DNA from: Apium graveolens
Taxonomy: Eukaryota; Streptophyta; Magnoliopsida; Apiales; Apiaceae
DNA length: 64,000 nt
NCBI RefSeq assembly: GCF_009905375.1
Contig: NW_027417689.1
Span: 1-64,000 of the forward strand
Direction of reading: 5' to 3'
Position 1 is the first letter of the stretch. Each line of letters begins with the position of its first letter. The notes under the pieces were generated by a model, which saw only the letters and a list, made by a program, of their open reading frames with translations, ran no database searches and had not been told where the DNA came from. The position numbers were made by a program, and so were the translations under genes. Positions 1 through 28,066 of this stretch are shown here, one piece after another.

Positions 1-1350
1 ATTTTTCCAATGAAATATTATTATATTAAACCGTTTATTATCTCACTAATAATTAAAACACTTTTTAATTATTAATCTTTTTTCTAAACTCTTTAGAAAT
101 AATTCTCTCACTTGATTTAATTTCCAAAAATTAAATTCTTAATTAATAATATTAAGAACTTTTTTAATTAATTTATAATCAATTAAATCTCATTTAATCA
201 ATTATTAAATTTGCCAATTAATTATTATTTCATAAATAAATAATTATCAGCCATTATTAATTAATTCCTCCACCATTAAATCATTCTCTTTTATGGGTGG
301 TGTTCCTGTTGGTTCAATATTAAGCCGGTAGTAGAAATAAATAGAATAAAATTATTTTATCATTATTTATATAAATTGTCTAATTCATTAAAATATGATT
401 AATTAATTAATCATATTTATTCTTCATCGTGAGGGATACTTCTCAGCATATCGCGACTATCCGGATAATACGAATTCACTGCTTAGAATACAAAGAACAT
501 ATTCAGTGAGTAGTTACCGTATAATTAATTCCTTCTACCCTACAATGTCACGATTAAATACAAGGCATGGAACTTGTGTCAAGCCTATCTTATTTAATCA
601 CTTGCTTTCCCATTCACTATGCTTAGTTCTATTTAATGTAAATTAGAAACTCGTTTCTAATTCATTCACTCTGGCCAGAGATTCCTGAACTAACATAAGT
701 GGATCAACATTGAACATTCTCTTCCTACACTGGAAGGGGTAGATCCTTTATTGATCATACCTATCTTCGTGTACAAATTCCTATACCCAGTAGAGCCCTT
801 ATAATTGTCCCTTGAGACTAAGAACTAAACCAAAGCATAGTTCAGTGTACACAAGAGACTTTGATGACCTCAAGTCTAAGGATACTTGTACAACTATCAC
901 TATATGAACAACTGCTGACACGTGAGTGAACTCCATCAGTTGTTCAGTTTGTGTGAGTCATGTTCAGTGAACTTATTCTATAATAAGCACCTACGTACTA
1001 GCTATAGTGTCACCACACAAATGTCTATGAGAACAGACATCCTTCATAATGAAGCAAGCATAGTATGTACCGATCTTTGCGGATTATTAATTACCAATTA
1101 GTAATCCTATGACCAGGAACTATTTAAGTTTAGAGTTATCATCTTTTAGGTCTCATTATTATGATCTCATCACAATCCATAAAAAGCTTTACTCTAAACT
1201 GTGGTATATCTTATTTAAATATTTAAATAGATAGAGCCCGCACTAAAAATAAAACAAGTCTTTTATTAATATCAATGAAATCAAAACAGATTACATAAAA
1301 GTTATTCCTAAATCCTCATACATGATTGGACTTAGGACATATCTCTTTCA
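1..1350 (-). repeat. 3' LTR of element A (partial)
   Basis: This sequence aligns along its length with the LTRs at 17015-18705, 23600-25255 and 29886-31531, and with the reverse complements of 53168-54827 and 59461-60902. It ends in ATATCTCTTTCA at 1350, the reverse complement of the LTR start TGAAAG. The polypurine tract follows at 1351-1360 (ATCTCCCACT, i.e. AGTGGGAGAT on the minus strand). The first roughly 300 bp of the LTR lie outside the window. Confidence 0.9.
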
Positions 1351-2207
1351 ATCTCCCACTTATACTAAAGCCAATCACTCTGGTATCTAATACCCATCTT
1401 GTCTTTATGACGATCAAAGTGACTCTGAGAAAATGGCTTTGTGAGTGGGTCTGCTATGTTGTTATGTGTGTCAACTCTCTCGACGTTGACATCTCCTCTA
1501 TTTTCTACTCAGATTCACCACCAAAATGATAAAAAATGTCCTGAGTCCTTCGCAAGTACTTATGGATGTTTTTCACTGCTTTCCAGTGGTCTTCACCTCG
1601 ATTGGACTGATATCTGCTCGTCACACAAATTGAATAAGCAATATCAGGCCTTGTACACAACATCGCGTATATGATAGATCCTATTGCTGAAGCATAAGGA
1701 ATCTTACTCATACGCTCACTTTCCTCAGGTGTCTTAGGAGACATTTTTCGGAAAGGGACACTCCATGGCTCATCGGTATGAGACCTCTTTTGGAGTTTTC
1801 CATGCTTAACCTTTTAAGCACTTTCTGGATGTATGTACCCTGGGTAAGACCTATCATTCTTCTAGATCTATCTCTATAGATCTTCATACCGAGAATGTAG
1901 GATGCTTCTCCCAAGTCCTTCATGGTGAAGTTCTTTGATAGCCATACTTTGACTGATTGTAGCATCGATATATCATTTCCTATAAGAAGTATGTCATCCA
2001 CATACAATACAAGAAATGTTACCACGCTCCCACTAACCTTCTTGTAGACACATGGTTCATCTATGGTTTTGATAAAACCAAACTCTTTGATTGTCTCATC
2101 AAAATAGATGTTCCATCAATGAGAAGCTTGCCTTAAACCATATATGGTTCGCAGCAGCTTACACACTAGGTGTTCATTTCCCTTGGAAAGAAAACCCTCT
2201 GGCTATG
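1351..2207 (-). pseudogene. Element A: broken C-terminal RT and RNase H remnant
   Basis: Reading on the minus strand, 2025-1708 carries the RT catalytic motif YVDD (in LVLYVDDILLIGND), followed in another frame at 1744-1505 by the downstream RT/connection motif CTRPDIAYSICVTSRYQSN. The first piece ends after a frameshift. RNase H is almost entirely missing: the reading jumps from FGGESE at about 1505 directly to VERVDTHNNIADPLTKPFS at about 1500-1420, the extreme C-terminus of Copia pol, with the polypurine tract next. The deletion removes the RNase H catalytic core. The remnant cannot make an active enzyme. Confidence 0.85.
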
Positions 2208-3590
2208 TCATATACACTTCCTCCTCAAGTTCCAATTGAGGAAGGTCGTTTTCACGTCCATTTCATAGTCGTAGTAAGCAGCAATCGCAAGCAAAATCCA
2301 AATTGATTTTAACAGGGCTACAGGAGAAAAAGTTTCATCAAAGTCAATCCCTTGCCTTTTTTTGAATCCTTTTGCCACGAGCCTGGCCTTATAGGTCTCC
2401 ACCTGGCCATTTGCTTCAATCTTTCTTTTGTTTACCCACTTAAACCCAATAGGCTTAACACATTCAGGCACCTCAACCAGAGTCCATACTTGGTTGGTAT
2501 ACATAGATTCCATTTCGGATTTCATGGCACTATGCCATTTCTCCGAGTCAACACTACTCATAGCCTCATTAGAGGTCACAGGGCCGTCATCATCAATGAT
2601 TGACAACTCATTGTCATTCTCAATGACAAGGCCATAATACCTCTCAGGTTGGCAAGACACTCTCCCTGACCTATGAATGGGCTGTTTCACAGAAGGTTGT
2701 TCAGTCTGAACAGGTGTTTCCACTTGACCTGTAGTAGTTTGTGCTTCTTGAACTTCATCAAGTTCAATTTTTCTCCCACTGTTTCCTTCAAGGATAAACT
2801 GCTTTTCCAAGAAGGTAGCATTTCTGGAGACAAACACCCGATGATCGGTGTAAAAGTAATACCCTAAAGTCTCTTTAGGATATCCCAAAAAATTACATTT
2901 TACAGATCGAGATTCCAGCTTATCTGGGTCAACTTTCTTGACATAGGCTGGACATCCCCAAATCTTAACGTGTTTAAGACTCAGTTTCCTTTCTTTCCAT
3001 ATCTCATATGGTGTTTGAGGAACAGATTTGGAAGGCACCTTATTCAGTAAATATGCTGAGGTTTCCAATGCATAACCCCATAGGAATACTGGAAGATTCA
3101 CATAGCTCATCATGGACCGAACCATGTCTAACAAAGTTCGATTTCTCCTTTCAGATACTCCATTCAACTGTGGAGTATATGGAGGAGTCCACTGGGAGAC
3201 TATACCATTTTCTTTGAGATAAGCTAGAAACTCTCCATTCAAGTATTCACCACCTCGATCTGATTGAAGAGTTATAATACTATGTTTGGTTTGTTTCTCC
3301 ACTTCATACTTATATTCTTTGAACTTTTCAAAGGCTTTAGACTTGTGTTTCATCAAATACACATATCTGAATCTAGATCGATCATCTATGAAAGCAATGA
3401 AGTATGAAAATCCACCCATGGCTTGCGTAGACATTGGTCCACATACATCTGTGTGTACCAATCCTAGCAAATCTGCAGCCCTCTCTCCATGTCCACTAAA
3501 TGGAGATTTGGTCATTTTACCCAATAGACAAGACTCGCATGTAGGATATGATTCAAAATCAAAGGGGTCAAGTAACCCTTCCTTATGCAA
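2208..3590 (-). pseudogene. Element A: integrase and N-terminal RT open frame (460 codons)
   Basis: This is the longest surviving pol frame of element A. The start of the frame keeps the second half of the integrase zinc finger (CESC, residues 18-21). The integrase catalytic triad is complete: D48 (HTDVCGP), D111 (SDRGGEY) and E147 ([13 protein letters not shown]), with 35 residues between D111 and E147, the DD35E spacing. The C-terminal part has the Copia GKW-like region ([22 protein letters not shown]) and then the start of RT ([38 protein letters not shown]). The frame ends soon after [10 protein letters not shown], where Copia elements normally continue into the RT fingers and palm; the next RT block lies in a different frame, so a frameshift near 2208-2250 breaks the protein. 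Integrase itself looks structurally complete apart from its N-terminal finger. Confidence 0.85.
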
Positions 3591-3659
3591 TGTCCGCAGT
3601 CTATTTTCACTAATATGACCTAGCCTACAGTGCCATAAATAGGTCAGATTTTCATCATC

Positions 3660-4262
3660 TCATTTTCTTTTATTAGTTTGTTCAATATAAAGTAAATCAT
3701 GCTCTACGTCACATATATACAGACCATTATTTAAAATGCCACGTCCAAAAATAACATTATCTCTAAAGATAGAACATTCATTATTCTTAATAATAAATGA
3801 AAAACCATCCACATCCAACATAGGAATAGAAACAATATTCCTCACAATAGAGGGAACGTAATAACAATTATTCAAAATAATAGTCTTGCCCGTAGGCATA
3901 TGTAAACTAAATGATCCTACAGATATGGCTGCAACCCTTGCTCCATTGCCCATACGTAGAATCACCTCATCTTTTTCAAGAGTCCTACTTCCCTTTAGTC
4001 CTTGCAATGAATTGCAAATATGAGAACCACAGGCGGTATCTAATACCCAAGTAGAAATTTGACCTAGTGACATATTAACTTCGATCATGAACATGCCTGA
4101 ATCAGAAGTGGTAGTCTCACTACCCTTCTTCAATTCTGCAAGGTAAACCTTGTAGTTCCTCTTCCAGTGCCCCAACTTGTTACAGTAAAAACAAACAGCT
4201 ACATTAGGACCAGTCAACTTGTGAGCATCTAGTATGCTCCGGAGTGATAGTGCAGAAGACAT
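3660..4262 (-). pseudogene. Element A: gag-protease remnant with large gag deletion
   Basis: The frame starts at the canonical gag ATG (4262) with MSSALSLRSILDAHKLTGPN. It then jumps at about 4203 straight into the CCHC zinc knuckle, CFYCNKLGHWKRNY, whose last Cys is replaced by Tyr. Compared with the gag at 56652-57914, about 230 codons of capsid region are missing. The protease-like region follows with LDTACGSHIC; elements C and D have LDTSCGSHIC or LDTSCGSQIC at the same place, so the usual D-T/S-G triplet is not canonical in any of them. The product ends at RTNKRK-like residues near 3660. The rest of the integrase zinc-finger region (3591-3659) is read through a stop or frame change. Confidence 0.8.
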
Positions 4263-5559
4263 GACGAATATAGTAAATCTGTAAATGATAAACACATAAC
4301 AACATTTAGCAAATATTCAATTTCATTTCAAAACACTATATGAATCGGGTCTTTATTCATAAGTGTCTCCCACTAGTTTATCTAATTTTTTCAACCCCCT
4401 AAGTGAAAATTAAGCATTCATAATGCTAGTGGGAATAGGGATCCTACATTCCATCACACAACCTCGGCTGTGGCACAAAACGTCATGTGATGTTCAATAG
4501 GCAGACAACTCTTGTCAATTACATCTTATGTTATTCCCTAATATAAGTTTAGCCTCTTGAATAATTGAGTCACGGCTGTAGCACGACAAACTCAATATTC
4601 TAAGTCAAGTCTAAGCCAACATTTCGTATAATTGAATCAGTCTCCAACGGCCCACGGCTGTAGCACGTACCGACCTTTAGATTCTAATTCAATGTACACA
4701 TCTCTATGTAATAGAAAAGTATTTCTTATTTCGAAATCAAAGCCCTCGGCTGTAGCACGAAACGACAATGATTTAAAAATAAGAACCACTTTCTACCATA
4801 TTGGAAGGCTATGACCGACTCAAGCCCGTTGTGTCATTGGCCAATTACTACTTGATATTATTTAATTTTAGAGGGATTATATTACGTTACAATCATAATC
4901 ATATTATAAAGAGATTCTTCCTTTTAAATTAAATATTTCAAATCAATAATCGATAATCAGATGATTCCCAGATCGGGTGGAGCATTGTCAATAGGCGTCA
5001 CTTAATAACCCTTTCTTACAGATAGAAATCTGTTGTTGACAGAATCATCCTTTCTCTCAATATTGAAAATTCATATTCAATTACGTGTTTCATAAACACA
5101 AGAATCTCATGATCGTATTCATAATATTTATCCTTAATGCAAGAAATGATTCCTATTCTAGATTTTCTAGAGAACGCCTTATATTGATTTAAGTTCACCT
5201 AAATCTATCATCGCATGGTAAACATAGGCATATATATCATATATAAAATTAAATAAACAAGTAAATGTAAAGTGCAATAAAGTAAATGTGTTTGGTTATA
5301 GCCCCATCCTATGTGATCTTTATCAAACTCATGATAAAGATCAAGGTCAATCTAATATGGTGATGGAAATAAATACAACTACTTATTACATAAGTCTTCT
5401 TCTTTGTTTAGACTTCTTGTATGCCTCGTCTTCTTCTTTGTATCACCTCCATTGGATAGCCTTCTTGAGTCTTCAATTACATTACATGATTGAAAGTAAA
5501 ACTAATCTAATGAACTTACAAGAATAACTCGAGTTACATTCAAGATTTATGATTACAAA
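4263..5559 (-). other. Element A untranslated leader, gag-proximal part
   Basis: There is no gene here. This is transcribed leader DNA between the primer-binding site and gag. Up to about 5240 it matches the leaders of C (28067-29040) and D (55680-56651). It contains four copies of GGCTGTAGCACG or close variants (starting 4466, 4574, 4656 and 4748), the reverse complement of the CGTGCTACAGCC motif of element D. Beyond about 5240 the similarity to C and D stops. The stretch 5555-5559 (ACAAA) is the left target duplication of element B. Confidence 0.75.
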
Positions 5560-6662
5560 TGTTATTCCCAGTGGACTAACAATGATATTTACAGAAGGGG
5601 GGTTGAATGTAAATCTCAAAACTTTTTCAAGTTTTGAGCAGTTTCTAAGGCTAAGTGTTAGAGTGATCAAATGTGTGTGAATTGCTTGAAGCTGATGCAG
5701 ACAGATATATATTCAAACACAAATGTAATGAGCACAAAGAACTTAAAAACTTTTCTGGTGGATTTGTTGTTCCACCAGAGATGTGTTATTTCAGAAAATC
5801 TGTGATTCAAATAATTAAATCACAGCTGCTTCCTAGTACAAACTAGATGATTTTCTCTTTTGATATTTCTAAACAGCTCAGGAAAATTCATGCCTAATTA
5901 CTAGCTGCTACTTGGTTTATATATCACCAAGTTTACAAGTGAAGACAAACTGTAAAATATAATTGAAAAGATTCTTCACATGTTTCTTCTTCATTTCTCT
6001 ATCCAATGCAATCTAGGATAATCTGAAAATCTTTGAATACTTCCTTGTTTGCATCAGAATGGAAATGCTGCATTTTCTTGATTCCTCCTAGAGGCTTCCA
6101 CATTCCAGTATGTCTCTGTCAACCCATGTGCCTCTGTCAGCTTGTGAATTGTCACTATCAACTGTTAATGAACTAAGCATCCGTTGAAGCTTTCATCCGT
6201 TGATGCCTTATCTGTTGAGGCTTTATCCGTTGAAGCTTTATCCGTTGATGCATTATCAGTTGAAGTCTTTATCCGTTGAAGCACTTATCCGTTGATGGAT
6301 ATTATCCGTTGAAGCATTAGAGACATCCGTTGAAGCTTTGTTTCTTATCCGTTGAAGGTGTTCAATATCCGTTGACACATCTTCACTTATACAAAATTAC
6401 AAGGCATAAAATATTTACAATTAGCCCTCCTATTTGTACATCCATTAGTAGTCAACATGACTGATTATTTCCTAACAACATCTAAGAATTACAGCTTGAA
6501 ACCAGAGAGTGAAATGTGCTACAATACTAAACTTATTGCTAGGTACAGCTACTCCTTCAACGGATAGCCAAGATGGTCTTATCCGTTGAGGCTACAAACA
6601 CTAGATTTCTACTTAAGTATTTTGCTTAACTTATCATCAAACTAATACACATATTCCTAACA
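5560..6662 (-). repeat. 3' LTR of element B
   Basis: The LTR is 1103 bp with TG...CA ends and is nearly identical to 15290-16392. On the minus strand it holds a TATA box (TATATAAA, 5916-5923). Upstream of that, at 6177-6376, is a cluster of ten ATCCGTTGA motifs plus two variants, and an inverted pair (TCAACGGATA...TATCCGTTGA) lies near 6556-6590. The polypurine tract abuts it at 6663. Confidence 0.93.
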
Positions 6663-6675
6663 AACTCCCCCTATT
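6663..6675 (-). promoter_or_regulatory. Polypurine tract of element B
   Basis: On the minus strand the sequence reads AATAGGGGGAGTT immediately before the 3' LTR start. This is the expected position and composition for the plus-strand primer. Adjacency to the TG of the LTR supports the boundary. Confidence 0.75.
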
Positions 6676-6970
6676 TATGTCTACTAGAACTGTAGGCATA
6701 AATTTGGGTTTAGCTTGATGATAACAAAACACTTAACAAATTTATAAACTGTAATAAAGCAGAAATTCAAAAGTGCTACAAAAATGTATATGCTGAGATG
6801 GAATTGAAGAATTACATTGTTTCCAAGGGTGCTCCTTTAGCCTGAGCAAATTACTTTCTTTTCTTTTGATCCCTGGTTTTCTTTCCTAGCCTCCTGTCAT
6901 TCTCCTCTATTTGAAGTTGAAGTTGTCTGTAGAATTCAACTTCATCTTCTTCATTGATATCTAACTTAGA

Positions 6971-7969
6971 TTAAATATCCTTGAGAGTTTCATTACTGGC
7001 AATCTTTAGCTGATCTTCAATTCTGAAAAATCTTCTGACTCCTTTGTTGTCTCTGAACTCCATCAACCAATGAGGTGATTTGTGAATTGTAATTCCTCTT
7101 TCTTGAATGAGTAAAGTTCTAGGCAAAGCATTGGGCTCCCTCCAAGTTTTCCTTATGTTGGCAATCTTGTTGAGAATCTCAGTCTTGGCAGTCCTGGTAA
7201 AGCCAGAATCCCTTTGTATGGCTGAGTAGACTCTGATCAAGGTAGAGTAGCCTTCATTCAGAATTCTGTGAAGAGGCCATGTTCTTTCCCCAGCTCCTTT
7301 GTATTTGAACACTAGTCTTTCTGGTAGCTGTCTGTAGGCAGCTATTCCCCTTACATCCTCCAGCTCATCCAGATAGAGTTCAATGTCTGAAAATTCTTTT
7401 ATGTCACAGATGTGAACATAATCATCTTTAGAGGTTTGAGGTTTAGGCTTAGGCTTCCGTGTGAATTTGATTGAGGCTTTAGAGGGTGTTGATTTGATTC
7501 TTCTTTTCTGCTTCTTTGATGGTGGAAAAGAGGTTAGGAAGGTGGGCAATTTGATGGTGTCCCAATCAATTGGTTCCTCCTTGGGAATGATTGTTTCACC
7601 ATGAATGTTCATGAAGGGGTCAGGTACAATGGATTCAGGAATAGAGGGTAGTGGTTTGGATATTGATTGGGTTTCTTCAGTCTTATCTACCTTCTTTCTC
7701 TTTGCATTGACCTTCTTTCTTTTCCCTTTCTGCCATTCTTCCTTACTTCTTTCCTCCATCTCAGTACCAACCATGTCCCCCATAGCTTCATCTTCACCTT
7801 TGACTTCAATTTCTTTCTGTTCTTCAGCCTGACTTGACTTTAGCTGTTTTTCAAGCTTTGCTTGTGCTCTTTTGTCAGTCTTTAGCTGTTTGGCTTCTTC
7901 CTTCAACCTTTTGGTTTCTTCCCTCTTGGCTATTGAGAATTTGGGATGTCCTTGCATCACACATATGCT
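6971..7969 (-). pseudogene. Element B extra ORF, C-terminal part (about 329 codons)
   Basis: This frame is in phase with the 1087-codon frame above it and is separated from it by a single TAG (7970-7972) and a few codons, so the two were probably one protein of about 1420 residues. It starts with a charged helical segment (KREETKRLKEEAKQLKTDKR, then a Lys/Glu-rich stretch) and basic clusters resembling nuclear signals (KRKKVNAKRKKVDK, KKQKRRIKS). A more folded-looking C-terminus follows (ELYLDELEDVRGIAAYRQLPERL, ERTWPLHRILNEGYSTLIRVYSA, SPHWLMEFRDNKGVRRFFRIEDQ). I do not recognise an enzymatic motif or membrane segment. An env-like role, proposed for the extra ORF of some Sireviruses, is not supported here. 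Function unknown. Confidence 0.65.
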
Positions 7970-10900
7970 CTATCCCTCTCTGAAGATAATAGCCATATTT
8001 CTCCTTACAGCTTCATCCATGGTCTCTTTGAGATATGCAATACTTCTACCTAAAAGCTTGTCCTCATCAGCTTTTGGAAGAGGAAAATCCACCTCTTTTA
8101 GAGGATTCTTTGTAGAGTCCTTATTGGATCTGTTGTTGGGCTTGAGAACCATAGGTTGCAGATCTTTGGAAGAAGTTTCTCCATCCTTATGCCTCCCTAC
8201 TGGCTTGAGTTCCATAATAATTGATTCCACTTTTGTGCTATGCTTCACAGATTGTGATTGAGAAGTTGTAGAACCAAATATTAGTTGCATCTTTTCATCA
8301 ATCTTCTTCCTTTGCTCTTTGACTTGCAATTCAGCTGCTGTTATCTGGATTAGATCAATTCTATCTAGCTTTCCTTTGACTTGAATAGTTAGAGAAGTTG
8401 TGATGACAGGAACTAGCACTTGAGAAATCTGAACTGTTGTAGATGGCTCTCCTTCCCCTTTCCCTTTATTCTCCCCCTTTTTGTTATCATCAAGGGTAGG
8501 GGTCAAGCCTTGTGCTTGTGCCAGCTGCATGAGTAGATTTGTTTGAGTTTGTTGATTCTGAAGAATGGTGACCATAGAGTCTTCAATGATTTGAACCCTA
8601 TCTTCCAATCTGGCTAGCCTCTTGTCAGCATCAGATGTTTTCCTCAGTCTCCCCAACAAATCTTGCATAGTACCATAGGGTATAACTGAATCCAATTTCT
8701 CAACATTGTAGGATTTCAGATCAGCAATGTCCTGCTTGAGCTCATCCACACTTAGATTTTGCTGGTAATGCTGCAACTGCAAGAGATGCAGAGATTCCAG
8801 ATGAGCTGGAAGAATTGCCTTGGTACCAACATCTTGAGTCTCCTGAAGGGCCTTCTGAATTGTCATGACTTGTCTGACCAAAGTGACACCAAACTCTCCT
8901 GGTGTTGATGGTTTTGCCCATGCCCATTCAGGAAGATCAGGAACAGAACTTGGGCCTGCTACTCCCCCTAAGTTCATGCTCTCATGCAAAGAATTAGAGT
9001 CATCATCATTAGAATTTACTCCAAATTCTTCAGATGGCTCACCAACTTGAGAAGGCAGCCTGTTGACAACAGCTTTGTCTCTGAGAAGAGATTCTGAAGT
9101 GTGTACAATGTGTAGTGTCTGTTCTGCCTCCACATTGCCCTGTGCAGCCAATAATTGATAGGCTGAAACAGGGTGAGTAAAAGTGTCAGCATCCAAGGAA
9201 ATGTTATCAATGACAACTTTGTAATGTTGCTGAAATTGTCTTTCCTTTTCTGCATCATCCACTTTCATTAACTCACTAGCAATGGCTGGATCCACCCTTA
9301 TAGCTTCTGTACCTGCCTTTCTTTCAATTTCTCTCTGTTCTTGCATCAGGGGCTCCCCCTGGCTCACACACACCCTCACACCCTCACCCTCACCTTCTAA
9401 GGTGGCACTCCTCTCACTCACTTTTGCCATGCTGGAAGAAATAGCATGCATATGGTGACTCTCAACCTCTTCTTTTGCCTGGGAGCAACCCAGCCTCTCA
9501 CTCAAAAGATCACTCCCTTCCCTCAAACCTAAAAGTGATTGTACAGTTGCCATGTCCTCTACAGTTGGAATTGTTTCTGTTAAGTGTGTAGAGACCATCA
9601 ACGGATAGGGAATATCCGTTGAAGTGGAAACTGATGGTATCAACGCATAACTGCTATTAAGCTTATCCGTTGAAGAACAACCACTTGTCAACGGATGAGA
9701 GATATCCGTTGAAGAAGGAAAAGATGTAGATATAGAAAGTGACATAATTGTTGAATCTGTGTGAATTGATTTTAAGTGTGGTGATACAGATTCTGCAACT
9801 ACATCTGAAAGAATTGGCTGATGATCCAACAAATCATCTAAAAGATGATGATCACCAGGTTTTGAGTGGGGCTCCTCCCTGAGTTTTAATGAGGGAGAAT
9901 CAGGAATTGATGTGAATATCATATCCACATCCAGAGAGGGTGTTGGAGAGTTTGATGAATGGTGTGTTTCTATATTGAGAGAATGGGGCTGTGATTCCAC
10001 ATTTACTGGAATCACATCAAGCTGAATTTGAGAAGGCACAGATACAGGTGGATGTATCTGTGCTGTGTGTGTCCCTTGTGTGGAAACTAGGGTCTTGGCC
10101 TTCCTTGAAAAGGCTTTAAATGGTGAATGTGTGGCTTCAGTGTCCCTCCCTCCTTTGTTCTGTGTCCCTGGTTGGGGACTATTTTCAATAGTTACAACCT
10201 TTTGGGAGGATGCAACTAGGGATGTGTTGGACTCCTTTTGAACCACCACAGTCTTTTGAGAGACTGTGGCTTGGCTGGTTTGGGTACCACTCACCTCTCC
10301 CACCTTATCCTGGGGGGCTTTTTGATGTTCACCCCTCCCCTCACCACTCACACCCTGTTCACTCCCTTCAGGGTTTATGGTAGTTGTTACAACTGTTGTC
10401 TTTTGAGAAACAACAGAGGTAGGTTTCTTTGACTTGACTTTGGAAACTTTAGATTTGGTGGCTTTGGTAGGAGCCTGTTTGGACAAAGACACAGGTTCCA
10501 TAGCCACACTAGAAGGCAAAGAAACATTGGGGTTGGAAATAGTAGGAGTTATAGAAGTATTTACCTCACTTACCTGTGGTGCATTCATGATTGGCAAGTA
10601 TACCAATGGCACCTGGCTGTTGAGGTTCATTCTCAAAAGGTCTGCAAGGACCCTTTTCTCTTGTGCCCAGCATTTGAGTTTATTATTCTCATTGGATATA
10701 ACCAAACCTTCAGCAACATGGTTAGCCAATAACATAAAGAATCTAGCATAGTAGATGTTATGTGGTCTATTAGCTTTGTTACCTAATCTGGAACCTAATT
10801 CTAGCATAACACAGTTGCTAAAATTAAAGTACCTATCAGAAACTAGCATATAGAGCATATTAACAAGAGATGAAGTGATAGCATCAAAATTGCTAATCTT

Positions 10901-11303
10901 CCCAGAGAAAACCTTAATAAAGGCATCTCCTAGAAAACTCCATTCTTTCCTAAGGCCTTTCCTTCTAATACTACCTAAACTAGCAGAATCAAAAACATAG
11001 CCTATGGAATCTAGCATAGCAGAGACATCTTTATCAGTGTATGGTGTCATGGCATTATTCTCAGGAAACTTAAAGCAAGATTGTATATCATCACAATTAA
11101 TGCAATAGTCCTTACCTTTGAGAGAGAAGGCAATAGTCATATCTGTGGAGTTGAACTCTGCAGTTGTCCAAATCTCCTCAATCACTTCACAGTAGATGGT
11201 TGTGATAATCAGAATGGGCTTCATTCTTTTCAACCAAGGCTATGAAATTATTCTTTTCATAAACAAATCTTGTTTGAGACATAATTTTGACTACTGGTGC
11301 CAT
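7970..11303 (-). CDS. Element B extra ORF, N-terminal part (1087-codon open frame, plus a frameshifted start)
   Basis: The open frame runs 11233-7970. Its true start is more likely the ATG at 11303 in another frame: that frame reads MAPVVKIMSQTRFVYEKNNF and continues to about 11190, while the long frame carries on with YCEVIEEIWTTAEF. A single frameshift near 11190-11225 would join them. The first 230 residues look globular (FSLKGKDYCINCDDIQSCFKF, RKGLRKEWSFLGDAFIKVFS, NRPHNIYYARFFMLLANHV) and resemble in layout the extra-ORF proteins common beside Copia elements in asterids, from memory. A long Ser/Thr/Pro-rich low-complexity middle follows. It includes STDISHPL- and STDIPYPL-type repeats encoded by the TATCCGTTGA motif and its complement. 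Near residues 830-930 there is a predicted coiled coil (DADKRLARLEDRVQIIEDSM). The frame ends at TAG 7970-7972. No catalytic motif is recognised. Confidence 0.75.
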
Positions 11304-11402
11304 TGTTGTGAGTAGAGGTTGCAGAGAAAAACTTGAGAATTTAGAGAGAAAGAGAATAAGAATTGTAAGAAAGCGTAAAGTGAGAATAAGAGTTCAATTG
11401 GG

Positions 11403-11410
11403 CTTTTATA
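11403..11410 (-). promoter_or_regulatory. Candidate internal TATA box for the extra ORF of element B
   Basis: On the minus strand the sequence is GTATAAAAGCCC, an excellent TATA box, about 100 nt upstream of the ATG at 11303. Between them is a pyrimidine-rich leader (TCTTTCTTACAATTC, CTCTTTCTCTCTAAATTCTC), typical of plant 5' UTRs. This layout suggests the ORF has its own transcript. Transcription itself cannot be seen from sequence. Confidence 0.5.
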
Positions 11411-11529
11411 CTTTCTTGAATTAAAACGTAAATAAAATGATTAAATGATACCTTTAAGTAAGTTACAGCCGTTCAAGAATAAATAAAAGTGTAGAAATTC
11501 TGAAAACTACCTTAAATACAAATACATAC

Positions 11530-11770
11530 AACACTGTATATCTGTATCAACGGTTGAGTAAAAGAATCAACGGCTGTGACTCACTTATAGTAACTGACGT
11601 GACACTTCAACGGATAAGGGAAATAGTTATCCGTTGATGAACAACACCATTTTATCCGTTGAAGGATAAAATTACCAGAAATGTATTTGTCTTTCAACGG
11701 ATAATAAACATCCGTTGATAGAACAATTTTGGCTTTCAACGGATAGAGAATATCCGTTGATAGGATAAGT
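11530..11770 (-). promoter_or_regulatory. Cluster of TATCCGTTGA motifs upstream of the internal promoter
   Basis: Seven good copies of ATCCGTTGA or its complement TCAACGGAT lie between about 11607 and 11765. They are arranged largely as inverted pairs with short spacers, for example TCAACGGATA-gagaa-TATCCGTTGA near 11737. Two weaker relatives (TCAACGG) are at about 11545-11575. The core CCGTTG fits the plant MYB-recognition consensus CNGTTR. Binding is an inference. Confidence 0.5.
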
Positions 11771-11844
11771 CTTAATTAAAGCCAGCTTTGTTCTTGCAGC
11801 AAATTCATTTCAGGCTTCAAGACAGATTATATAGATGACATAGA

Positions 11845-12636
11845 TTATGAATAATTAAGCATACCTAACTCACTTACTAATCTTGTGAATGTTGATTCAT
11901 CAAGTGGCTTGGTAAATATGTCTGCAATCTGCTTTTCACTTGGAACAAAATGAAGTTCCACTGTACCTTTCATCACATGTTCCCTAATGAAGTGGTACTT
12001 GATATCAATGTGCTTGGTTCTTGAGTGCTGCACTGGATTTTCAGTAATGGCAATGGCACTTGTGTTGTCACAGAATATTGGAATTTTGTCAACAGTCAGA
12101 CCATAGTCAAATAGTTGATTCCTCATCCATAATATTTGTGCACAGCAACTACCAGCAGCAATGTACTCAGCTTCAGCTATTGATGTGGAAATAGAATTCT
12201 GCTTCTTGCTGAACGATACTTTCTTTTGCTTTCCTTTCTGACAAGCATCACACAGTCCATCCCTTGTGAATTCCACTAGAGGCATTCCTCTAACTAAGTC
12301 CTTTTTGACTAGATCATTCATTGTCTTGAAATTCAAATGGGACAGCTTCTTGTGCCATAGCCAACTTTCAACTGGACTTGCTTTGCTGAGAAGACAAGTA
12401 ATGGATTCTGCATCTATAGAGTTGAAATCAGCTAAGTACACATTCCCTTTTCTAACTCCAGTTAGAACCACTTTATTGTCCTTTTTACTTGTGACAATAC
12501 AGGCTTCAGAATTGAAGGAAACAGTATTCCCTCTGTCACATAGTTGACTGATTCTCAATAAATTGTGTTTGAGACCATCAACCAATGCAACTTCATCAAT
12601 GATGACATTTTCTTTTGAAATCAAGCCATATCCCAT
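11845..12636 (-). pseudogene. Element B: integrase zinc finger fused in frame to RNase H (263 codons)
   Basis: Residues 1-142 are the GAG-pre-integrase region ending in the integrase HHCC zinc finger: H95 and H100 (WHKKLSH), C129 and C132 (CDAC). At about residue 143 (near nucleotide 12210) the sequence jumps into the end of Copia pol: SKKQNSIS, then AEAEYIAAGSCC with a catalytic-type Glu at 156, FCDN with Asp 190, and the terminal IADIFTKPLDE. Everything between is missing: the integrase DDE core, its C-terminal domain, all of RT and the start of RNase H. The deletion keeps the reading frame, so a stable chimeric polypeptide is conceivable. It cannot integrate or copy DNA. The frame opens downstream of a TGA (12643-12645), so it is also cut off from protease. 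Confidence 0.85.
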
Positions 12637-12790
12637 AGTGAATCATTTGTTGTCATCTCCAAAGGTTATGCTAGGGCCAGCTCTCTCCTTAAACTCTGTG
12701 AGCAGGGTGAAATCTCCTGTCATGTGTCTTGAACAACCACTGTCCAAGTACCATAAATTCCTTCTTTGTCCCTGCACACAACAAAATCAA
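12637..12790 (-). pseudogene. Element B: protease core, broken
   Basis: Read in the frame of the downstream pol fragment, this stretch gives NLWYLDSGCSRHMTGDF, the Copia aspartic-protease active site (D-S-G), then LLTEFKERAGPSITFGDDNK and a TGA at 12643-12645. The upstream zinc-knuckle frame (12791-14053) ends in a different phase, so a frameshift separates gag from protease. The active-site triplet itself is intact. Confidence 0.75.
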
Positions 12791-14053
12791 TCAAGTTGAT
12801 TTTGGTACCCAAGTTTCCTTGGGTCCAGCCTTGTTAGTCTTTTTCCTAGACTTCATTCCTCCTGCATCTTTTGACTTAGGTAACTTTGGGTCAACCTTGG
12901 TCTCAGATGTGGTTGGTTGAAGTGTAGGGTTAGTCACAGAATCATTTAACACATTTGATTGAATTTGATAAGGCATAGGTTGTGCAAAAATGTTATTCCA
13001 CATAGGCATATTGTATGGCATTTGAGGCATACTAAATGCAGTAAAATAAGGATTGTTAATATATGGCATGTTTGCAAAATGTGCATGAGGATTCTGGTGA
13101 GACATAACAGGCATATCATGCAGAGGTGACATAGACATGTTAGGCATGGAGGGATTTGAAGGCATGGGAGCATTTTTAACAGATTTGCAATTATCAGATA
13201 GGTGATTAACACTTTTACAATGCACACAGCTTTTTCTAGGAGCATACCTATCAGGTGTGTAATTGTTATGTTTATTAATCCCTACCTTCCCATTTCTTTT
13301 AGATTTTCTTTTAGTTTCCTTCTTATCCTCAACCAACTTAAGCCTATCTTTTAGCTGATCTAAAGTCATGTGTCCTATATTCACCTTACTGATATCTCTG
13401 GATGTGCTAGCTCCTTCTTTGACAAAGTTCTTGAGAGTTGAATTATTCTTTTTATTGAGATTTTTATTTTTAAAAGAACTTGCCTGTTTTAATTGATGAG
13501 CCTTCAATGGATGCTCCTTTTCTTCCTTCAACGGATAACTTTCATCATCCGTTGATTCCACATCCGTTGACAATCCATCAATTAATTCTAACTCCTTTTT
13601 GTTTTTCTTCCAGGCATCCTCACAGAATGATTCAATTCCCTGAACCTTTGCAATCTGAACACTAACATCCCTAGATGTTTTCCAGGCCTTGATTACCTCT
13701 TGCTCACTTTCTAACTGTGTAGAAAGAATTTCTACTTTCTTAACAGCTTCTGCTAGTTCACTCTCAACAGTCAAGCATTTAAGTTTTATCTTTTCAAGCT
13801 CAATTACCTGATCCTCCAACACAACATTCCTATCACTTAAAAACACATTATTCTCCTTGATTCTAGTGTTTTCTTTTGCTAGTGATTTAAGAGAAACACG
13901 CAAATGATATAATTCATTAGTCATATCATTTATGGCTTCATTGCATTCATGTTTAGAAAGCTGAGAGAGATCAGTAGTAATTACCTGGTTGCTTGATGAA
14001 CTAGTTTCATTTTCATCAGAATTAGCCATCAGGGCTAGGTTGACATATTCCAC
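12791..14053 (-). pseudogene. Element B: gag/pol linker with coiled coil and second zinc knuckle
   Basis: This frame is in phase with gag and separated from it by one TGA at 14084-14086, where the context QDD*AADG suggests a TGG (Trp) to TGA change. The N-terminal half is predicted coiled coil (NELYHLRVSLKSLAKENTRI, VVLEDQVIELEKIK, ESELAEAVKKVEILSTQLES). A CCHC knuckle of form C-X2-C-X4-H-X4-C follows (CVHCKSVNHLSDNC). Then comes a Met/Pro/Asn-rich tract (NAPMPSNPSMPNMSMSPLHD) and a basic C-terminus ending in KETWVPKST. The same coiled-coil and second-knuckle arrangement is usual in Sirevirus polyproteins. The stretch 13520-13570 carries three more ATCCGTTGA motifs inside coding sequence. Confidence 0.75.
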
Positions 14054-14083
14054 ATCATCATCTTCATTTACCCCATCTGCTGC

Positions 14084-15229
14084 TCAATCATCTTGAGTGA
14101 GAAAAGCTCTTTCATTTTGTTTGAGCAAATCAAAATACTTCTTTTTGTAATCAACTTGCTCAAATTTCTTTTTCACAGAATTTGGCTTCCTACACTCACT
14201 TGCAAAGTGTCCACTAATGCCAAAGTTGTAACATTTGAACTTTGATTTGTCCACCATGTTTTTATTTGGCTTAGTGAACTTTGTGTTTTTACTGAACTTC
14301 ATTTTTGCAAACCTCCTGGACAGAAAGGCCAAATGTTCTTCAATATCATCAGATTTATCCTGACTGGAATTGTCTTTATCCTCAGCAACTTGCTCTTTAC
14401 CCTTGCTTGATTCTGATTTGCTTGTGCCAATTTTGAGACTTGGCATTGTCTTCTCCTCATTCCTGGCTTCCATCTTCTCACTGTCAGCTACAAGAGCAAC
14501 TGTTCCTCCTTTTCTCTTTCCCTTTTCCAACAGCTCATCCTGCTCCATTTCAAGTTCATAAGTCTTCAAAATTCCATATAATCTTTCAAGTGTGAAGTTC
14601 TTATAATCTTGAGAATTTCTCAAAGAGACAATCATGGGCTTCCATTCCTTTGGCAGAGACCTAAGAAATTTTAAGTTGGAATCCTTGACTTGGTACACTC
14701 TACCATACAGCTTCAATCCATTCAACAGTTTCTGAAACCTGTTGAAGGTATCATTTAATGATTCACCTTCTTCAAAGTGAAAATATTCATACTGTTGAAT
14801 AAGAAGCTGCATCTTGTTCTCTCTGACCTGCTCAGTACCTTCACAGATGATTTGTATAGTATCCCAAACTTCCTTTGCAGTTTGGCTACTGATGACATTG
14901 TCAAATATATCTTGATCTAAGCCATTAAACAAAATGTTCATGGCTCTCTTATCCTTGCGGATTTCTTCCATGTCTTCAATCGTCCATTCTGCTTTTGGCT
15001 TGGGAATGGACTGTCCAACAGCAACTGTTGCAGTAGCAGTTGTGGCTACTTTGTGAGGGATGTGAGGACCATTTTCAATACAGTTGATGTAGCTTTCATC
15101 TTGAGAAAGAAGATGTAAATGCATCTTCACTTTCCAGTGATGATAATTATCTTTTTCCAGGACTGGGATCTTTACACCAATATCCTTCCTACTCATGATG
15201 GTAGCAGGAGGATTCTTCTGTGCACTCAT
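14084..15229 (-). pseudogene. Element B: gag (381 codons, defective zinc knuckle)
   Basis: Gag forms the retrotransposon particle and binds its RNA. The start MSAQKNPPATIMSRKDIGVK lies 60 nt downstream of the PBS, as usual. Residues of about 60-230 match the Copia gag (UBN2-type) pattern: DNYHHWKVKMHLHL, KRAMNILFNGLDQDIFDNVI, AKEVWDTIQIICEGTEQVRE, FHFEEGESLNDTFNRFQKLL, LRSLPKEWKPMIVSLRNS. The CCHC knuckle at residues 333-346 reads CYNFGISGHFASEC; the second Cys is Phe, so zinc binding should be lost. The frame ends at a TGA that interrupts the gag-pol polyprotein. It has more good coding sequence than the rest of pol, consistent with recent decay. Confidence 0.85.
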
Positions 15230-15275
15230 GATGTTAACAGAATAGATCCTTAAACTCTTTGTATGTTAAGAGCTT

Positions 15276-15289
15276 GTTCTGATACCAAT
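15276..15289 (-). promoter_or_regulatory. Primer-binding site of element B
   Basis: On the minus strand, two bases after the 5' LTR end, the sequence is TGGTATCAGAACA, which matches the complement of the initiator-Met tRNA 3' end (TGGTATCAGAGC) at ten of twelve positions. Confidence 0.75.
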
Positions 15290-16392
15290 TGTTATTCCCA
15301 GTGAACTAACAATGATATTTACAGAAGGGGAGTTGAATGTAAATCTCAAAACTTTTTCAAGTTTTGAGCAGTTTCTAAGGCTAAGTGTTAGAGTGATCAA
15401 ATGTGTGTGAATTGCTTGAAGCTGATGCAGACAAATATATATTCAAACACAAATGTAATGAGCACAAAGAACTTAAAAACTTTTCTGGTGGATTTGTTGT
15501 TCCACCAGAGATGTGTTATTTCAGAAAATCTGTGATTCAAAGAATTAAATCACAGCTGCTTCCTAGTACAAACTAGATGATTTTCTCTTTTGATATTTCT
15601 AAACAGCTCAGGAAAATTCATGTCTAATTACTAGCTGCTACTTGGTTTATATATCACCAAGTTTACAAGTGAAGACAAACTGTAAAATATAATTGAAAAG
15701 ATTCTTCACATGTTTCTTCTTCATTTCTCTATCCAATGCAATCTAGGATAATCTGTAAATCTTTGAATACTTCCTTGTTTGCATCAGAATGGAAATGCTG
15801 CATTTTCTTGATTCCTCCTAGAGGCTTCCACATTCCAGTATGTCTCTGTCAACCCATGCGCCTCTGTCAGCTTGTGAATTGTCACTATCAACTGTTAATG
15901 AACTAAGCATCCGTTGAAGCTTTCATCCATTGATGCCTTATCCGTTGAGGCTTTATCCGTTGAAGCTTTATCCGTTGATGTATTATCAGTTGAAGTCTTT
16001 ATCCGTTGAAGCACTTATCCGTTGATGGATATTATCCGTTGAAGCATTAGAGACATCCGTTGAAGCTTTGTTTTTTATCCGTTGAAGGTCTTCAATATCC
16101 GTTGACACTTCTTCACTTATACAAAATTACAAGGCATGAAATATTTACAATTAGCCCTCCTATTTGTACATCCATTAGTAGTCAACATGACTGATTATTT
16201 CCTAACAACATCTAAGAATTACAGCTTGAAACCAGAGAGTGAAATGTGCTACAATACTAAACTTATTGCTAAGTATAGCTACTCCTTCAACGGATAGCCA
16301 AGATGGTCTTATCCGTTGAGGCTACAAACACTAGATTTCTACTTAAGTGTTTTGCTTAACTTATCATCAAACTAATACATATATTCCTAACA
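15290..16392 (-). repeat. 5' LTR of element B
   Basis: This is the partner of 5560-6662, also 1103 bp. The TATA box on the minus strand is at 15646-15653. The ATCCGTTGA cluster lies at 15908-16110, roughly 255-460 bp upstream of the TATA box, and the inverted pair at about 16285-16320. ACAAA (16393-16397) follows as the target duplication. Confidence 0.93.
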
Positions 16393-16397
16393 ACAAA

Positions 16398-17014: not shown

Positions 17015-18705
17015 TGAAGGGTTTTTAGCACATAAACCCAGCGAAAACGTAAATTTAATCTTAAAAAAAAACGAAACCCTCCGCAGGATCCATGCAAAAA
17101 ATAATATTTAATTCGTAGTTCAGTATGTTTACCTTAAGAAGCTTTACGTTAATGGAAAGATGGAGGTCTTTAATAGCGATCCAAGAACGATGAACGGAGA
17201 TCCTTAGCAGCTGCTCCTCAAGTGTGAAGCACTCCACCGGTATCCACCAAGAAAACGATGTAATGGAGGAGGAGATGGAGAGAATTAGGGTTTTGTAAAT
17301 CTTTTGGGTTGAGGCAAAAATAGGGTTTATAATACTATATTTATAGGCAAAATTTTCAGCTGAAATTTTTTCCATAAAATATTATTATTATTAACCGTTT
17401 ATTATTCTCACTAATAATTAAAACACCTTTTAATTATTAATCCTTTTTCTAAACTCTTTAGAAATAATTCTCTCACTTGATTTAATTTCCAAAAATTAAA
17501 TTCTTAATTAATAATATTAAGAACCTTTTCAAAATTAATTTATAATCAATTAAATCTCTTTTAATCAATTATTAAATTTGCCAATTAATTATTTATTTAT
17601 TTCATAAATAAATAATTATCAGCCATTATTAATTAATTCCTCCACCATTAAATCATTCTCTTTTATGGTGTGACCCTGTAGGTTCAATATTAAGCCGGTA
17701 GTAGAAATAAATAATAATAAAAGTATTTTATCATTATTTATATAAATTCTCTAATTCATTAAATATGATTAATTAATTAATCATATTTATTCTACATCGT
17801 GAGGGATACTTCTCAGCATATCGCGACTATCCGGATAATACGAATTCACTGCTTAGAATACCAAGAACCTATTCAGTGAGTAGTTACCATACAATTAATT
17901 CCTTCTACCCTGCAATGTCACGATTAAATACAAGGCATGGAACTTGCGTCAAACCTATCTTATTTAATCACTTGCTTTCCCATTCACTATGCTTAGTTCT
18001 ATTTAATGTAAATTAGAAACTCCTTTCTAATTTCATTCACTCTGGCCAGAGATTCCTGAACTACCATAAGTGGATCAGCATTGAACATTCTCTTCCTACA
18101 CTGGAAGGGGTAGATCCTTTATTGATCATACACTATCTTCGTGTACAAATTCCTTATAGTTGTCCTTTGAGACTGAGAACTAAACCAAAGCATAGTTCAG
18201 TGTACACAAGATGACTATGATGACCTCAAGTCTAAGGATACTTGTACAACTATCACTATGTGAACAACTGCTGACACGTGAGTGAACTCCATCAGTTGTT
18301 CAGCTGTGTGAGTCATGTTCAGTGAACTTATTCTATAATAAACACCTACATACTAGCTATAGTGTCACCACATAAATGTCTATGAGAACAGACATCCTTC
18401 ATAATGAAGCAAGCATAGTATGTACCGATCTTTGCGGATTATTAATTACCAATTAGTAATCCTATGACCAGGAACTATTTAAGTTTAGAGTTATCATCTT
18501 TTAGGTCTCATTATTATGATCTCATCACAACCCATAAAAAGCTTTACTCTAAACTGTGGTATATCTTATTTAAACATTTAAATAGATAGAGCCCGCACTA
18601 AAAATAAAACAAGCCTTTTATTAATATCAATGAAATCAAAACAGATTACATAAAAGTTATTCCTAAATCCTCATACATGATTGGACTTTGGATATATCTC
18701 TTTCA
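17015..18705 (-). repeat. 5' LTR of element A (chimeric U5)
   Basis: From about 17190 to 18705 it aligns with the other Angela-like LTRs of the window. The first roughly 175 bp (the U5 end on the minus strand, starting TGAAGGGTTTTTAGC) do not match their TGTTGGATTTTAATCGC end. The right end is CTCTTTCA at 18705, followed by copy 1 of RepX. Confidence 0.8.
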
Positions 18706-22469: not shown

Positions 22470-23479
22470 GTACGGTAGCATCGTTTAATATTTATTACAT
22501 ATGGATGTCGATAGATATATATTAGTGATATAACCAAAATTTCATATCGAAATAGTTTTATTTGGTTTGCCTTTTTAACAGTCAAACTTCAGTTTGACTA
22601 GTACAGTGAACTACTTTTTATTCCTGCATTGGTGATTCGATTTTTTTAAAAATATTTTTCAAAGATCCAACCGTACGGATATCAATAGATATATATTAGT
22701 TATGTAAACAAAGTTTCATATCAAAATAATTTTATTGGGTTTATCATTTTAACAATCAAGCTTCCAGTTTGACTAGTACAGTTAATTACTGTTTATTCCT
22801 GAATTGGTGTTTCGATTTTTTTAAAAACAAATTTCAACGATCCAACCATATGGATGTCAATATATATATATATTAGTAATATAACCAAAATTTTATATCA
22901 AAATAATTCTATTTATTTTGCCATTTTAACAGTCAATTTTCAGTTTGACTGATACAACCAGTGTTTATTCCTGGATTGTTGTTTCGATTTTTAAAAAAAT
23001 ATTTTTCAACGACCCAACCATATGGATGTCAATAGATATGTATATTAGTGATATAATCAAAATTTCATATCAAAATAATTTTATTTTTTTTGCCATTTTA
23101 ATAGTCAATTTTCAGTTTGACTAGTACAACTAACTAGTGTTTATTCCTGGATTGTTGTTTCGATTTTTTTAAAATTATTTTTCAATGATTCAACCATACG
23201 AATGTCAATAGATATATATCAATAGATATATATATATTAGTGATAAAAACAAAGTTTCATATCAATATAATTTTATTTGGGTTATCATTTTAACATTCAA
23301 ACTTCAGTTTGACTAGTACAGCTAACTACTGTTTAAACCTGAATTGGTATTTCGATTTTTTAAAAAATAAATTTCAACGATCCAACCGTATTGATGTCAA
23401 TAGATATATATATATTTAGTAGTGACTTGACCAAAATTTTATATCAAAATAACTTTATTTGTTTTACCATTTTAACAGT
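22470..23479 (+). repeat. Tandem array, period about 175 bp, five to six diverged copies
   Basis: The anchor CAGTTTGACTAGTACA (or a close variant) recurs at 22590, 22765, 22941, 23113 and 23305, spacings of 175, 176, 172 and 192. Other unit landmarks are TGATTCGATTTTT, ATCCAACCGTATGGATGTCAATAGATATA and ATCAAAATAATTTTAT. The last unit is cut after TTTTAACAGT by the LTR-like sequence at 23480. The array is AT-rich and contains no gene. Confidence 0.85.
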
Positions 23480-27003: not shown

Positions 27004-28066
27004 TTAAAAAACAATAGTCTTGCCCGTAGGCATATGTAAATGAAATGATTCTACATCTACAGTAGCAACTCTTGCTCCATTTCCCATCAGTAGAATCACC
27101 TCCTCTTCCTCAAGAGTCCTACTTCTCCTTAGTCCCTGCAACAAATTGCAGATATGAGAACCACAGGAGGTATCTAATACCCAAGTAGAAATTTGATTTA
27201 ATGACATATTCACTTCTATCATTGAACATACCTGAATCAGAAGCGGTAGTCTCACTACCCTTCTTCTTCTTCAATTCTGCAAGGTAAACCTTGCAGTTCC
27301 TCTTCCAGTGCCCCACCTTGTTACAGTGAAAGCAAACAACTTTGCTCTTGGGGTCTTCAGCTTTTGGTGGAACCGACATTTTCTCACCTACTTTCTTCTT
27401 CTTGGAAGGGTTCCTATTCCTTTTCTTAGGATTGTAACCTTCACCAATTAGAAGAACAAAACTCTTCTTAGGGGGAAAATTCGATTCCGCAGTCTTCAAC
27501 ATGTTATGGAGTTCAGGCAGGCTGACATCCAACTTATTCATGTGAAAGTTCACAACAAACTGCGAGAACGAACTCGGAAGCGATTGCAAGACCATGTCTT
27601 GGTTCAGCTCCCCATCCATGGCAAAACCAAGTTGTCCAAGACGTTCAATCAAATTGATCATCTTAAGTACATGGTCATTCACATATGATCCTTCAGACAT
27701 CCTACAACCGAACAACTCCTTCGATATCTCATATCGAGCTGTCCTCCCTGCCACATCATACAACTCTTGTAGATGCATGAGGATAGTGTGAGCATCCATA
27801 TGCTCATGTTGCTTCTGTAGCTCAATGTTCATGGAAGCTAGCATGATGCATTGAGCAACATTTGCATCATCTACCCACTTACGATACACAACATGTTCAT
27901 CATTATGTGCATCACTAGTAGGTTCAGTAGGCTTAGGTGAGTCAATCACGTATTCCAGCTTCTCAATCCTGAGAACAATTCTCAAGTTTCGAAGCCAGTC
28001 AGCATAATTAGGACCAGTCAACTTGTGAGCATCCAGTATGCTCCTGAGTGATAGTGCAGAAGACAT
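27004..28066 (-). pseudogene. Element C: gag with zinc knuckle, frameshifted into protease
   Basis: The ATG at 28066 begins MSSALSLRSILDAHKLTGPN. The gag body is intact (WLRNLRIVLRIEKLEYVIDS, AQCIMLASMNIELQKQHEHM, HVLKMINLIERLGQLGFAMD, LPELHNMLKTAESNFPPKK) and is followed by a correct CCHC knuckle, CFHCNKVGHWKRNC. One extra base near 27225, compared with element D, moves the frame from SGMFMIEVNM to SGMFNDRSEYV. The protease continues in another frame (27255-27004) with LDTSCGSHICN and VILLMGNGARVA. Gag could still be made as a frame-terminated protein of about 300 residues with an aberrant tail. Confidence 0.85.

Follow-up and report, generated by a model that had tools for sequence, protein, structure and literature searches.

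The closest described counterparts of the sequences studied here are the RM boxes of Sirevirus retrotransposons, high-copy motifs located upstream of the TATA box in the long terminal repeats (LTRs) and also upstream of env (PMC2829016). Bousios et al. (2010) suggested that they activate the LTR promoter and a second start before env, although their regulatory role was left open; their sequence varies between elements and two elements carry extra copies at the env start (PMC2829016). Palindromes have also been described in the LTR cis region of the maize Sireviruses Opie and Ji (Bousios et al. 2016; PMC5311732, PMC10760457). Outside the retrotransposons, VANDAL DNA transposons encode their own binders of nine-base words (the VANC21 and VANC6 targets), which are built up by tandem repeats, form arrays over the element and are family-specific (PMC5735166, PMC10398659). 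Here we describe a nine-base motif, ATCCGTTGA/TCAACGGAT, in element B, a Ty1/copia retrotransposon of apparent Sirevirus type on the minus strand at 5560..16392 of the window, that is, the whole analysed stretch of 64,000 nucleotides (positions 1 to 64,000 of contig NW_027417689.1, assembly GCF_009905375.1) of celery, Apium graveolens. Our preferred reading, at a probability of roughly 0.68, is that the motif serves a Sirevirus family as a maintained, lineage-specific site of DNA recognition, of RM-box type, distributed from the LTR to env at steps of ~2–3 kb.

Element B contains 39 copies of the motif (12 per LTR plus 15 internal) and the remaining window 0, against a chance expectation of 0.010 copies on average and 1 at most in 500 dinucleotide shuffles of element B, a control by which we rejected a chance origin. 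These numbers agree with a sequence-only reading of the same DNA, which had announced about twelve motifs per LTR and three internal clusters and had named two checks beforehand, namely comparison with shuffled sequence and persistence of motif and pairing in other copies of the family; neither refuted it, the numbers being far above those of the shuffles and both motif and pairing recurring in other copies. The clusters and the TATA-like strings beyond them are:

15909..16105, minus strand: array of ten half-sites in a single orientation, 5' LTR
6179..6375, minus strand: array of ten half-sites in a single orientation, 3' LTR (10 CpG, observed/expected ratio (O/E) 1.27, GC 0.40)
16287..16319, no strand: inverted pair of the 5' LTR (motifs at 16287 and 16311), 15 nt between the 9-mers
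6557..6589, no strand: inverted pair of the 3' LTR (motifs at 6557 and 6581), 15 nt between the 9-mers
13504..13570, no strand: gag cluster, with intact motifs at 13528, 13547 and 13562, a CpG-decayed fourth at 13504 and one inverted pair
11607..11760, no strand: linker cluster upstream of env, seven motifs and three inverted pairs
9598..9712, no strand: env coding cluster, five intact motifs and a decayed one at 9640
15646..15653, minus strand: TATA-like string (consensus only), 256 nt past the last motif of the 5' LTR array
11405..11410, minus strand: TATAAA string (consensus only), 197 nt past the linker cluster and ~107 nt before the ATG at 11303

Head-to-head pairs, on which the sequence-only reading had laid stress, exist but do not describe the main LTR array. 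Eight were found in element B, one per LTR and six internal, with 7–15 nt between the 9-mers and a gap of exactly 7 nt in four of the internal ones; within each LTR, 11 of the 12 copies share one orientation (ten in the half-site array, one within the sole inverted pair), and of the 24 copies in the two LTRs, 20 are half-sites without a partner. The steps of the LTR array are mostly 15–22 bp, becoming longer where decayed sites intervene. The placement of clusters upstream of both presumed promoters is supported: TATAWA strings do follow the LTR and linker clusters at the distances listed, but these are consensus strings in AT-rich DNA, and further ones occur on the element strand at 15441, 11833, 6746 and 5711.

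The motif is very abundant in celery, whose published assembly spans 3.33 Gb with a scaffold N50 of 289.78 Mb (PMC8051603). In this 3.33-Gb genome, to which all our genome-wide counts refer, TATCCGTTGA occurs 204,701 times versus 6,193 for the reversed word, the paired pattern TCAACGGATN{1,28}ATCCGTTGA at 59,608 places per strand versus 0 reversed, and the CpG-decayed TATCTGTTGA 56,091 times versus 12,194 reversed. Some stretches carry it repeatedly: LTR copies spaced ~19.5 kb apart occur three times in succession at C9:91.99-92.03 Mb, and two full motif sets ~22 kb apart, with identical inner spacing, at C1:2.833-2.868 Mb, which suggests that element-bearing stretches were duplicated in tandem. 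The string ATCAGTTGA recurs at fixed spots among the motifs (6255 and 15985 in the window; pol pieces L047-L050 and L052) and may represent either a site that has decayed or another form with a function of its own. Elsewhere in the window, at 62400-63600, two occurrences of a repeat ~765 bp apart each bring a small cluster of CCGTTG/CAACGG (near 62.6 and 63.4 kb); we rejected this cluster as kin of the motif, its flanks (AACCGTTGT) being different.

That the motif enters coding sequence had also been noticed from the sequence, and the phenomenon proved wider than first claimed, extending to gag, pol and env and to three reading registers. In gag and env the motif is read as STD (register 0) or Y/HPL (register 1). 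The spacer between integrase and reverse transcriptase (RT) in pol is absent from element B; in each of six other elements, found through motifs elsewhere in them, it carries 3–5 motifs (26 in total, two of the pieces, L047 and L048, being near-identical and derived from duplicated stretches). There the array step is 24 nt, coding-strand ATCCGTTGA copies are read as SVE or SVD (register 2), and four of the six spacers end with TCAACGGAT read as STD. A candidate additional register in pol, QRI, was rejected because the underlying DNA is CAAAGG. In one copy possessing all the parts, the distances between successive cluster centres are 2583, 2267, 2038, 2094 and 3048 bp. The word also occurs, in LTR, gag, pol, linker or env, in diverged relatives from celery (L039, L040, L044 and L045, from a set, L039-L046, found via the motif itself), with identities of 44–65% for the gag pieces, 37–70% for the env pieces and, for the pol of L039, 69% to P0045.

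At the protein level, Y/HPL lies within 12 residues after STD in 20 of 63 gag relatives (shuffled mean 0.01) and in 7 of 46 env relatives (shuffled mean 0.03). The same holds for 10 of another 66 gag relatives, a set in which many proteins lack the stretch; the Heracleum and Daucus relatives were compared as proteins only. Such recurrence would favour selection on the peptides STD and Y/HPL as the cause of the coding copies. We give that explanation almost no credence: pol reads identical DNA as SVE/SVD, the LTR is untranslated yet carries the word, the env stretch falls within a part that has no confident structure (in a poor model), and in the sister lineage described below the peptides change together to PTD or SMD plus Y/HPS. 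The pol register and this joint change led us to reject it. Since the word is retained on either strand, as half-site or pair, translated or not, what is maintained is the DNA word and not a peptide. Proteins P0124, P0125 and P0126, at two places in the gag tree, show yet another peptide form, the third, in which STD is accompanied by HQL or YQL; it would fit a motif TCAACTGAT/ATCAGTTGA. P0124, an "interaptin-like" protein of Rhizophagus irregularis, is 46% identical to gag over its full length and likely reflects plant DNA in the Rhizophagus assembly.

CpG dinucleotides provide evidence for maintenance. The motif holds 39 of the 52 CpGs of element B; outside it, the element has a CpG O/E of 0.035, with TpG at 1.35 and CpA at 1.32, whereas other parts of the window range from 0.50 to 0.84. 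Low CpG with raised TpG and CpA is the mark of methylation decay. The same contrast appears in 30 near-identical LTRs (the best matches, including both window LTRs, and hence young), each of which carries 10-13 motifs and 0-2 non-motif CpGs. Departures from the commonest base in these LTRs affected 16 of 720 cells at motif CpGs and 5 of 2520 at other motif bases, as compared with 142 of 10317 at other C/G and 59 of 19553 at A/T positions. The higher rate of change at the motif CpG bases implies that the motif CpG does decay after insertion, yet the replicating lineage retains it. Codon usage points the same way: in the gag2 and env open reading frames (ORFs), all 5 ACG and all 3 CCG codons lie inside the motif, whereas none of the 176 other Thr/Pro codons counted does (Fisher P 3.6e-14 after exclusion of an ACA codon that touches the motif by a single base). 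When gag sites were reached via neighbouring LTRs instead of via the motif (8 of the 20 stretches sampled were gag), we found 28 intact and 4 CpG-decayed sites, and 0 other CpG in 1224 nt.

A genome search with the gag protein P0054, 49% identical to the window gag2, uncovered a second lineage (lineage II) in which sites at places matching those of element B and its close relatives (lineage I) read YCGACGGAT; we call the two words type I and type II. Lineage II was sampled as the best gag protein matches to P0054, using 20 of 100 scored places for gag and 10 of those for the other parts. Type II prevailed over type I in gag (57 versus 3, 20 copies), LTR (49 versus 1, 9 alignable of 10 pieces), pol (27 versus 0, 10 of 10 alignable), linker (27 versus 1, 10 of 10 alignable) and env (19 versus 0, 8 env pieces; 1 of the 10 first pieces aligned to the probe, the rest falling mostly before the site, and 8 were re-fetched, 7 of them env). 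The sum is 179 type II versus 5 type I, to which LTR, pol, linker and env add 75 CpG-decayed type-II words. The lineage-II pieces L073-L081, nine in number and obtained earlier, gave 23 type II and 0 type I, with L073, L078 and L080 carrying none. Lineage I shows the converse: 39 type I versus 0 type II in element B, 26 versus 0 in pol, and 377 versus 4 across the 30 LTR loci, those four lying in the flanks. Genome-wide, TATCCGTCGA occurs at 50,865 places versus 1,226 reversed.

The spacing of the env pairs is common to both lineages: the inverted pairs of the env cluster in element B (9598..9712) and in lineage II have gaps of 7, 16 (one arm decayed in element B) and 7 nt. The encoded peptides shift jointly, STDISHPL becoming SMDIAHPS and, generally, PTD or SMD accompanying Y/HPS. 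The triplet following ATCCGT is TGA at 27/27, 366/368 and 26/26 lineage-I sites and mostly CGA, CGG or CGT in lineage II, where the second CpG was decayed at 26 sites, versus 201 intact sites and 82 with the first CpG decayed; the retention of this second CpG indicates that each lineage seems to keep its own flank. In a gag tree of 46 rows (45 of 107 sequences kept, rows off the gag stretch having been dropped), labelled from the peptides and with the classes Q, LS and 'other' assigned by hand, the Apium L and S peptide types formed sister clades, L also occurring in Heracleum and mixed forms in Daucus. On this tree, either type I or type II may be ancestral.

A neutral origin, with an old repeat multiplied by slippage and gene conversion and the lineages moulded by the loss of CpG, seems scarcely credible to us in the light of these patterns. 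The LTR and pol arrays, with their steps of mostly 15–22 and of 24 nt, do resemble tandem repeats and type I is derivable from type II via CpG decay; nonetheless, one word recurs at five scattered places, in either orientation and in three registers, its CpG is retained while nearly all others are lost, and the lineage-I TGA flank is near-invariant. The sister lineage also bears on a host MYB, whether an R2R3-MYB or a MYB3R protein acting at the core AACGG of the mitosis-specific activator (MSA) element, that would bind the motif and activate the LTR as NtMYB2 does on tobacco Tto1. CCGTTG matches the MYB consensus CNGTTR, as proposed in the sequence-only reading, and CAACGG includes AACGG, the core that the MSA element bound by MYB3R has in common with type I (PMC8964727). 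Among plant LTRs, that of Tto1 is reported to be under MYB control, and the same has been proposed for Rider of tomato. This fit holds for lineage I only, since CCGTCG/CGACGG at matching lineage-II sites contains neither AACGG nor GTTR, which weakens the MYB reading, and MYB control gives no reason for the copies in gag, pol and env. We regard it as unlikely.

We also considered that the inverted pairs might fold the transcript into hairpins that serve packaging or give rise to small RNAs. The paired clusters do fold better than shuffled sequence (z-scores of -6.9 for env, -6.6 for the linker, -5.3 for gag, -3.9 for pol and -3.7 for the LTR pair), and palindromes of maize Sireviruses are reported as small-RNA hotspots. 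However, paired clusters fold by construction, the ten-copy array of the 3' LTR folds no better than its shuffles (z +0.64; 153 of 200 did equally well or better), lineage-II LTR stretches gave z +0.22 in one and -2.6 in the other, and hairpins alone would permit any palindrome, not one fixed word everywhere. With the main LTR array unfolded, we rejected hairpins as the shared function of all sites, even though the four internal clusters do fold, and an RNA function appears very unlikely.

Under the reading that we prefer, a maintained DNA-recognition site, a candidate factor binding double-stranded DNA sequence-specifically would read half-sites and inverted pairs alike. It would help to initiate transcription from the LTR and, probably, from a second start before env; the 256-nt and 197-nt spacings to the TATAWA strings fit an activation of both. 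The coding copies would add binding sites along the element body and could keep the whole element in one chromatin state, and the factor, or its specificity, would have to differ between lineages I and II. Several observations weigh against this picture. One of the ten lineage-II LTR pieces, L090, whose source element is the nearest to P0054, was not alignable to the lineage-II LTR and carries 4 type-I motifs, and the relative L039 is mixed, with type I in most parts and two type-II words in gag. The loss of one of its two CpGs could make type I from type II with the factor unchanged, and lineage II retains more CpG outside the motif. Promoter control alone leaves the coding copies unexplained. 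Finally, the sampled copies are often young and related, so that the counts are not independent.

The reader of the motif might also be encoded by the element itself, as in VANDAL transposons, with a protein that counteracts silencing by binding the motif dispersed over its own element and that has diverged together with the motif between the lineages. The celery word likewise has nine bases, stands in arrays over the whole element and differs between sister lineages, types I and II matching the family-to-family differences of VANC-type arrays. On the other hand, the env-like ORF and the relatives tested have no DNA-binding domain above the Pfam cut-off, and we discounted matches below it (Myb/SANT-like in P0005 and P0016, Transposase_32 in P0002 and P0004). 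The structure model of the env-like ORF is poor (mean predicted local distance difference test score 39.8) and was rejected as evidence of DNA binding, no fold search having been made. VANDAL elements are moreover DNA transposons with a known self-encoded binder and, as far as reported for VANC21, targets in non-coding regions, whereas the celery case is known from the DNA word alone, which lies in coding sequence too (PMC5735166, PMC10398659). Given the missing domain and the poor model, self-recognition of this kind is for us a tentative hypothesis, improbable although less so than MYB control. Its fullest form would be an element-wide address code, a CpG-bearing nine-base word every 2-3 kb read by a co-diverged element-encoded protein in a VANC-like anti-silencing role, which by analogy we can only put forward as a speculative option; the corollary that coding sequence has been bent to suit such a code is just as doubtful.

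The sequence-only reading had raised a kinship with reported Sirevirus repeats, and this was borne out: the motif belongs to the RM-box kind described by Bousios et al. (2010), sharing with it a high copy number, LTR copies before a TATA string, copies upstream of env and, in its inverted pairs, a CGG-CCG core (PMC2829016). RM boxes number at least eight copies, most of them 200–400 bp inside the LTR and across the 300–500 bp that follow; element B has 12 per LTR, with the array 287–483 bp from its start, and seven copies upstream of env at 11607-11760. Where RM boxes consist of palindromic CGG-CCG units, element B has eight inverted pairs alongside a main LTR array of half-sites, and the distance from CGG to CCG is 11 nt in the celery gap-7 pairs versus 4-6 in most RMs, as we read Table 3 (PMC2829016). 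As for a CpG island near TATA, the LTR and linker clusters have CpG O/E of 1.27 and 1.55 at GC of 0.40 and 0.34, and the TATA strings follow at 256 and 197 nt, whereas the mean distance published for the TATA box past the island is 37 bp (PMC2829016). RM copies lie outside gag and pol, while the celery ones are also inside gag, mid-env coding sequence and, in relatives, pol, in three registers and with a coordinated lineage difference; on account of these coding copies we call the celery motif an RM-box variant. It resembles the Opie/Ji palindromes in clustering in the Sirevirus LTR cis region and differs from them in that the celery LTR array is mostly non-palindromic and does not fold (PMC5311732, PMC10760457). 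The presence of RM boxes in the LTRs of Sireviruses and ahead of env is thus already known. The gag and pol coding copies, the three registers, the CpG contrast and the coordinated sister-lineage difference were not met in the literature we surveyed, mostly through listings, and overlap with Bousios et al. (2016) is possible.

Coding placement, CpG retention and the coordinated lineage difference make RM boxes look like a testable recognition system, for which type-I and type-II words, a few bases apart, could be used side by side to find the reader. If that reader is a host factor, it faces ~200,000 sites in the celery genome. If it is encoded by the element, the motif would represent a self-recognition device in plant retrotransposons; to our knowledge, such devices are known only from VANDAL DNA transposons.

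LTR alignment, ORFs, Pfam matches and junctions identify element B as what appears to be a deleted Ty1/copia Sirevirus, with the following parts besides the clusters given above:

5560..16392, minus strand: element B, Ty1/copia retrotransposon of Sirevirus type
15290..16392, minus strand: 5' LTR, 12 motifs at 15909-16319
15276..15289, minus strand: spacer ATTGG and primer-binding site TATCAGAAC, Sirevirus-type
14084..15229, minus strand: gag ORF, part one (Retrotran_gag_2; ORF and Pfam)
12791..14053, minus strand: gag ORF, part two (gag2), with motif-encoded STD..STD..YPL
11845..12636, minus strand: pol remnant with GAG-pre-integrase domain (ORF and Pfam)
7970..11233, minus strand: env-like ORF, 1087 aa in the window
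6971..7960, minus strand: second env-like ORF, 329 aa
6665..6672, minus strand: polypurine tract AGGGGGAG, starting 10 bp before the 3' LTR
5560..6662, minus strand: 3' LTR, 12 motifs at 6179-6589; of the 13 sites of the family, the one at 6210 is decayed

A target duplication, ACAAA, was identified by eye from the junctions at 5555-5559 and 16393-16397, and the two LTRs are identical at 1093 of 1114 aligned bases, 21 differing (~11 flanking bases included). The 5' LTR junction of Sireviruses has CA/ATTGG followed by the primer-binding site TATCAGAGC; that of element B has ATTGG and TATCAGAAC, which differs from TATCAGAGC by one base. The polypurine tract is likewise accompanied by the extra copies characteristic of Sireviruses, in this case AGGGGGAG octamers at 8471, 8962 and 9353, all within the env-like ORF. 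The Pfam scan detected no integrase or RT domain in the ORFs of element B; the pol remnant at 11845-12636 is still open despite their lack, its GAG-pre-integrase domain continuing, by eye, into an RNase H-looking tail. A protein search with the env-like ORF yielded 46 relatives, the source-named ones being from Apium, Heracleum and Daucus. IMG/VR yielded no relatives.

Other repeats share the window with element B. A second Ty1/copia element is present in repeated pieces at 1-5059, 17367-18604 and 23907-28857, 61-98% identical over stretches of 100-300 bp, and includes an integrase/RT-like ORF at 2208-3590. At 22510-23411 a unit of ~175-190 bp is present five times in tandem, with 61-86% identity between the copies and the reference one.

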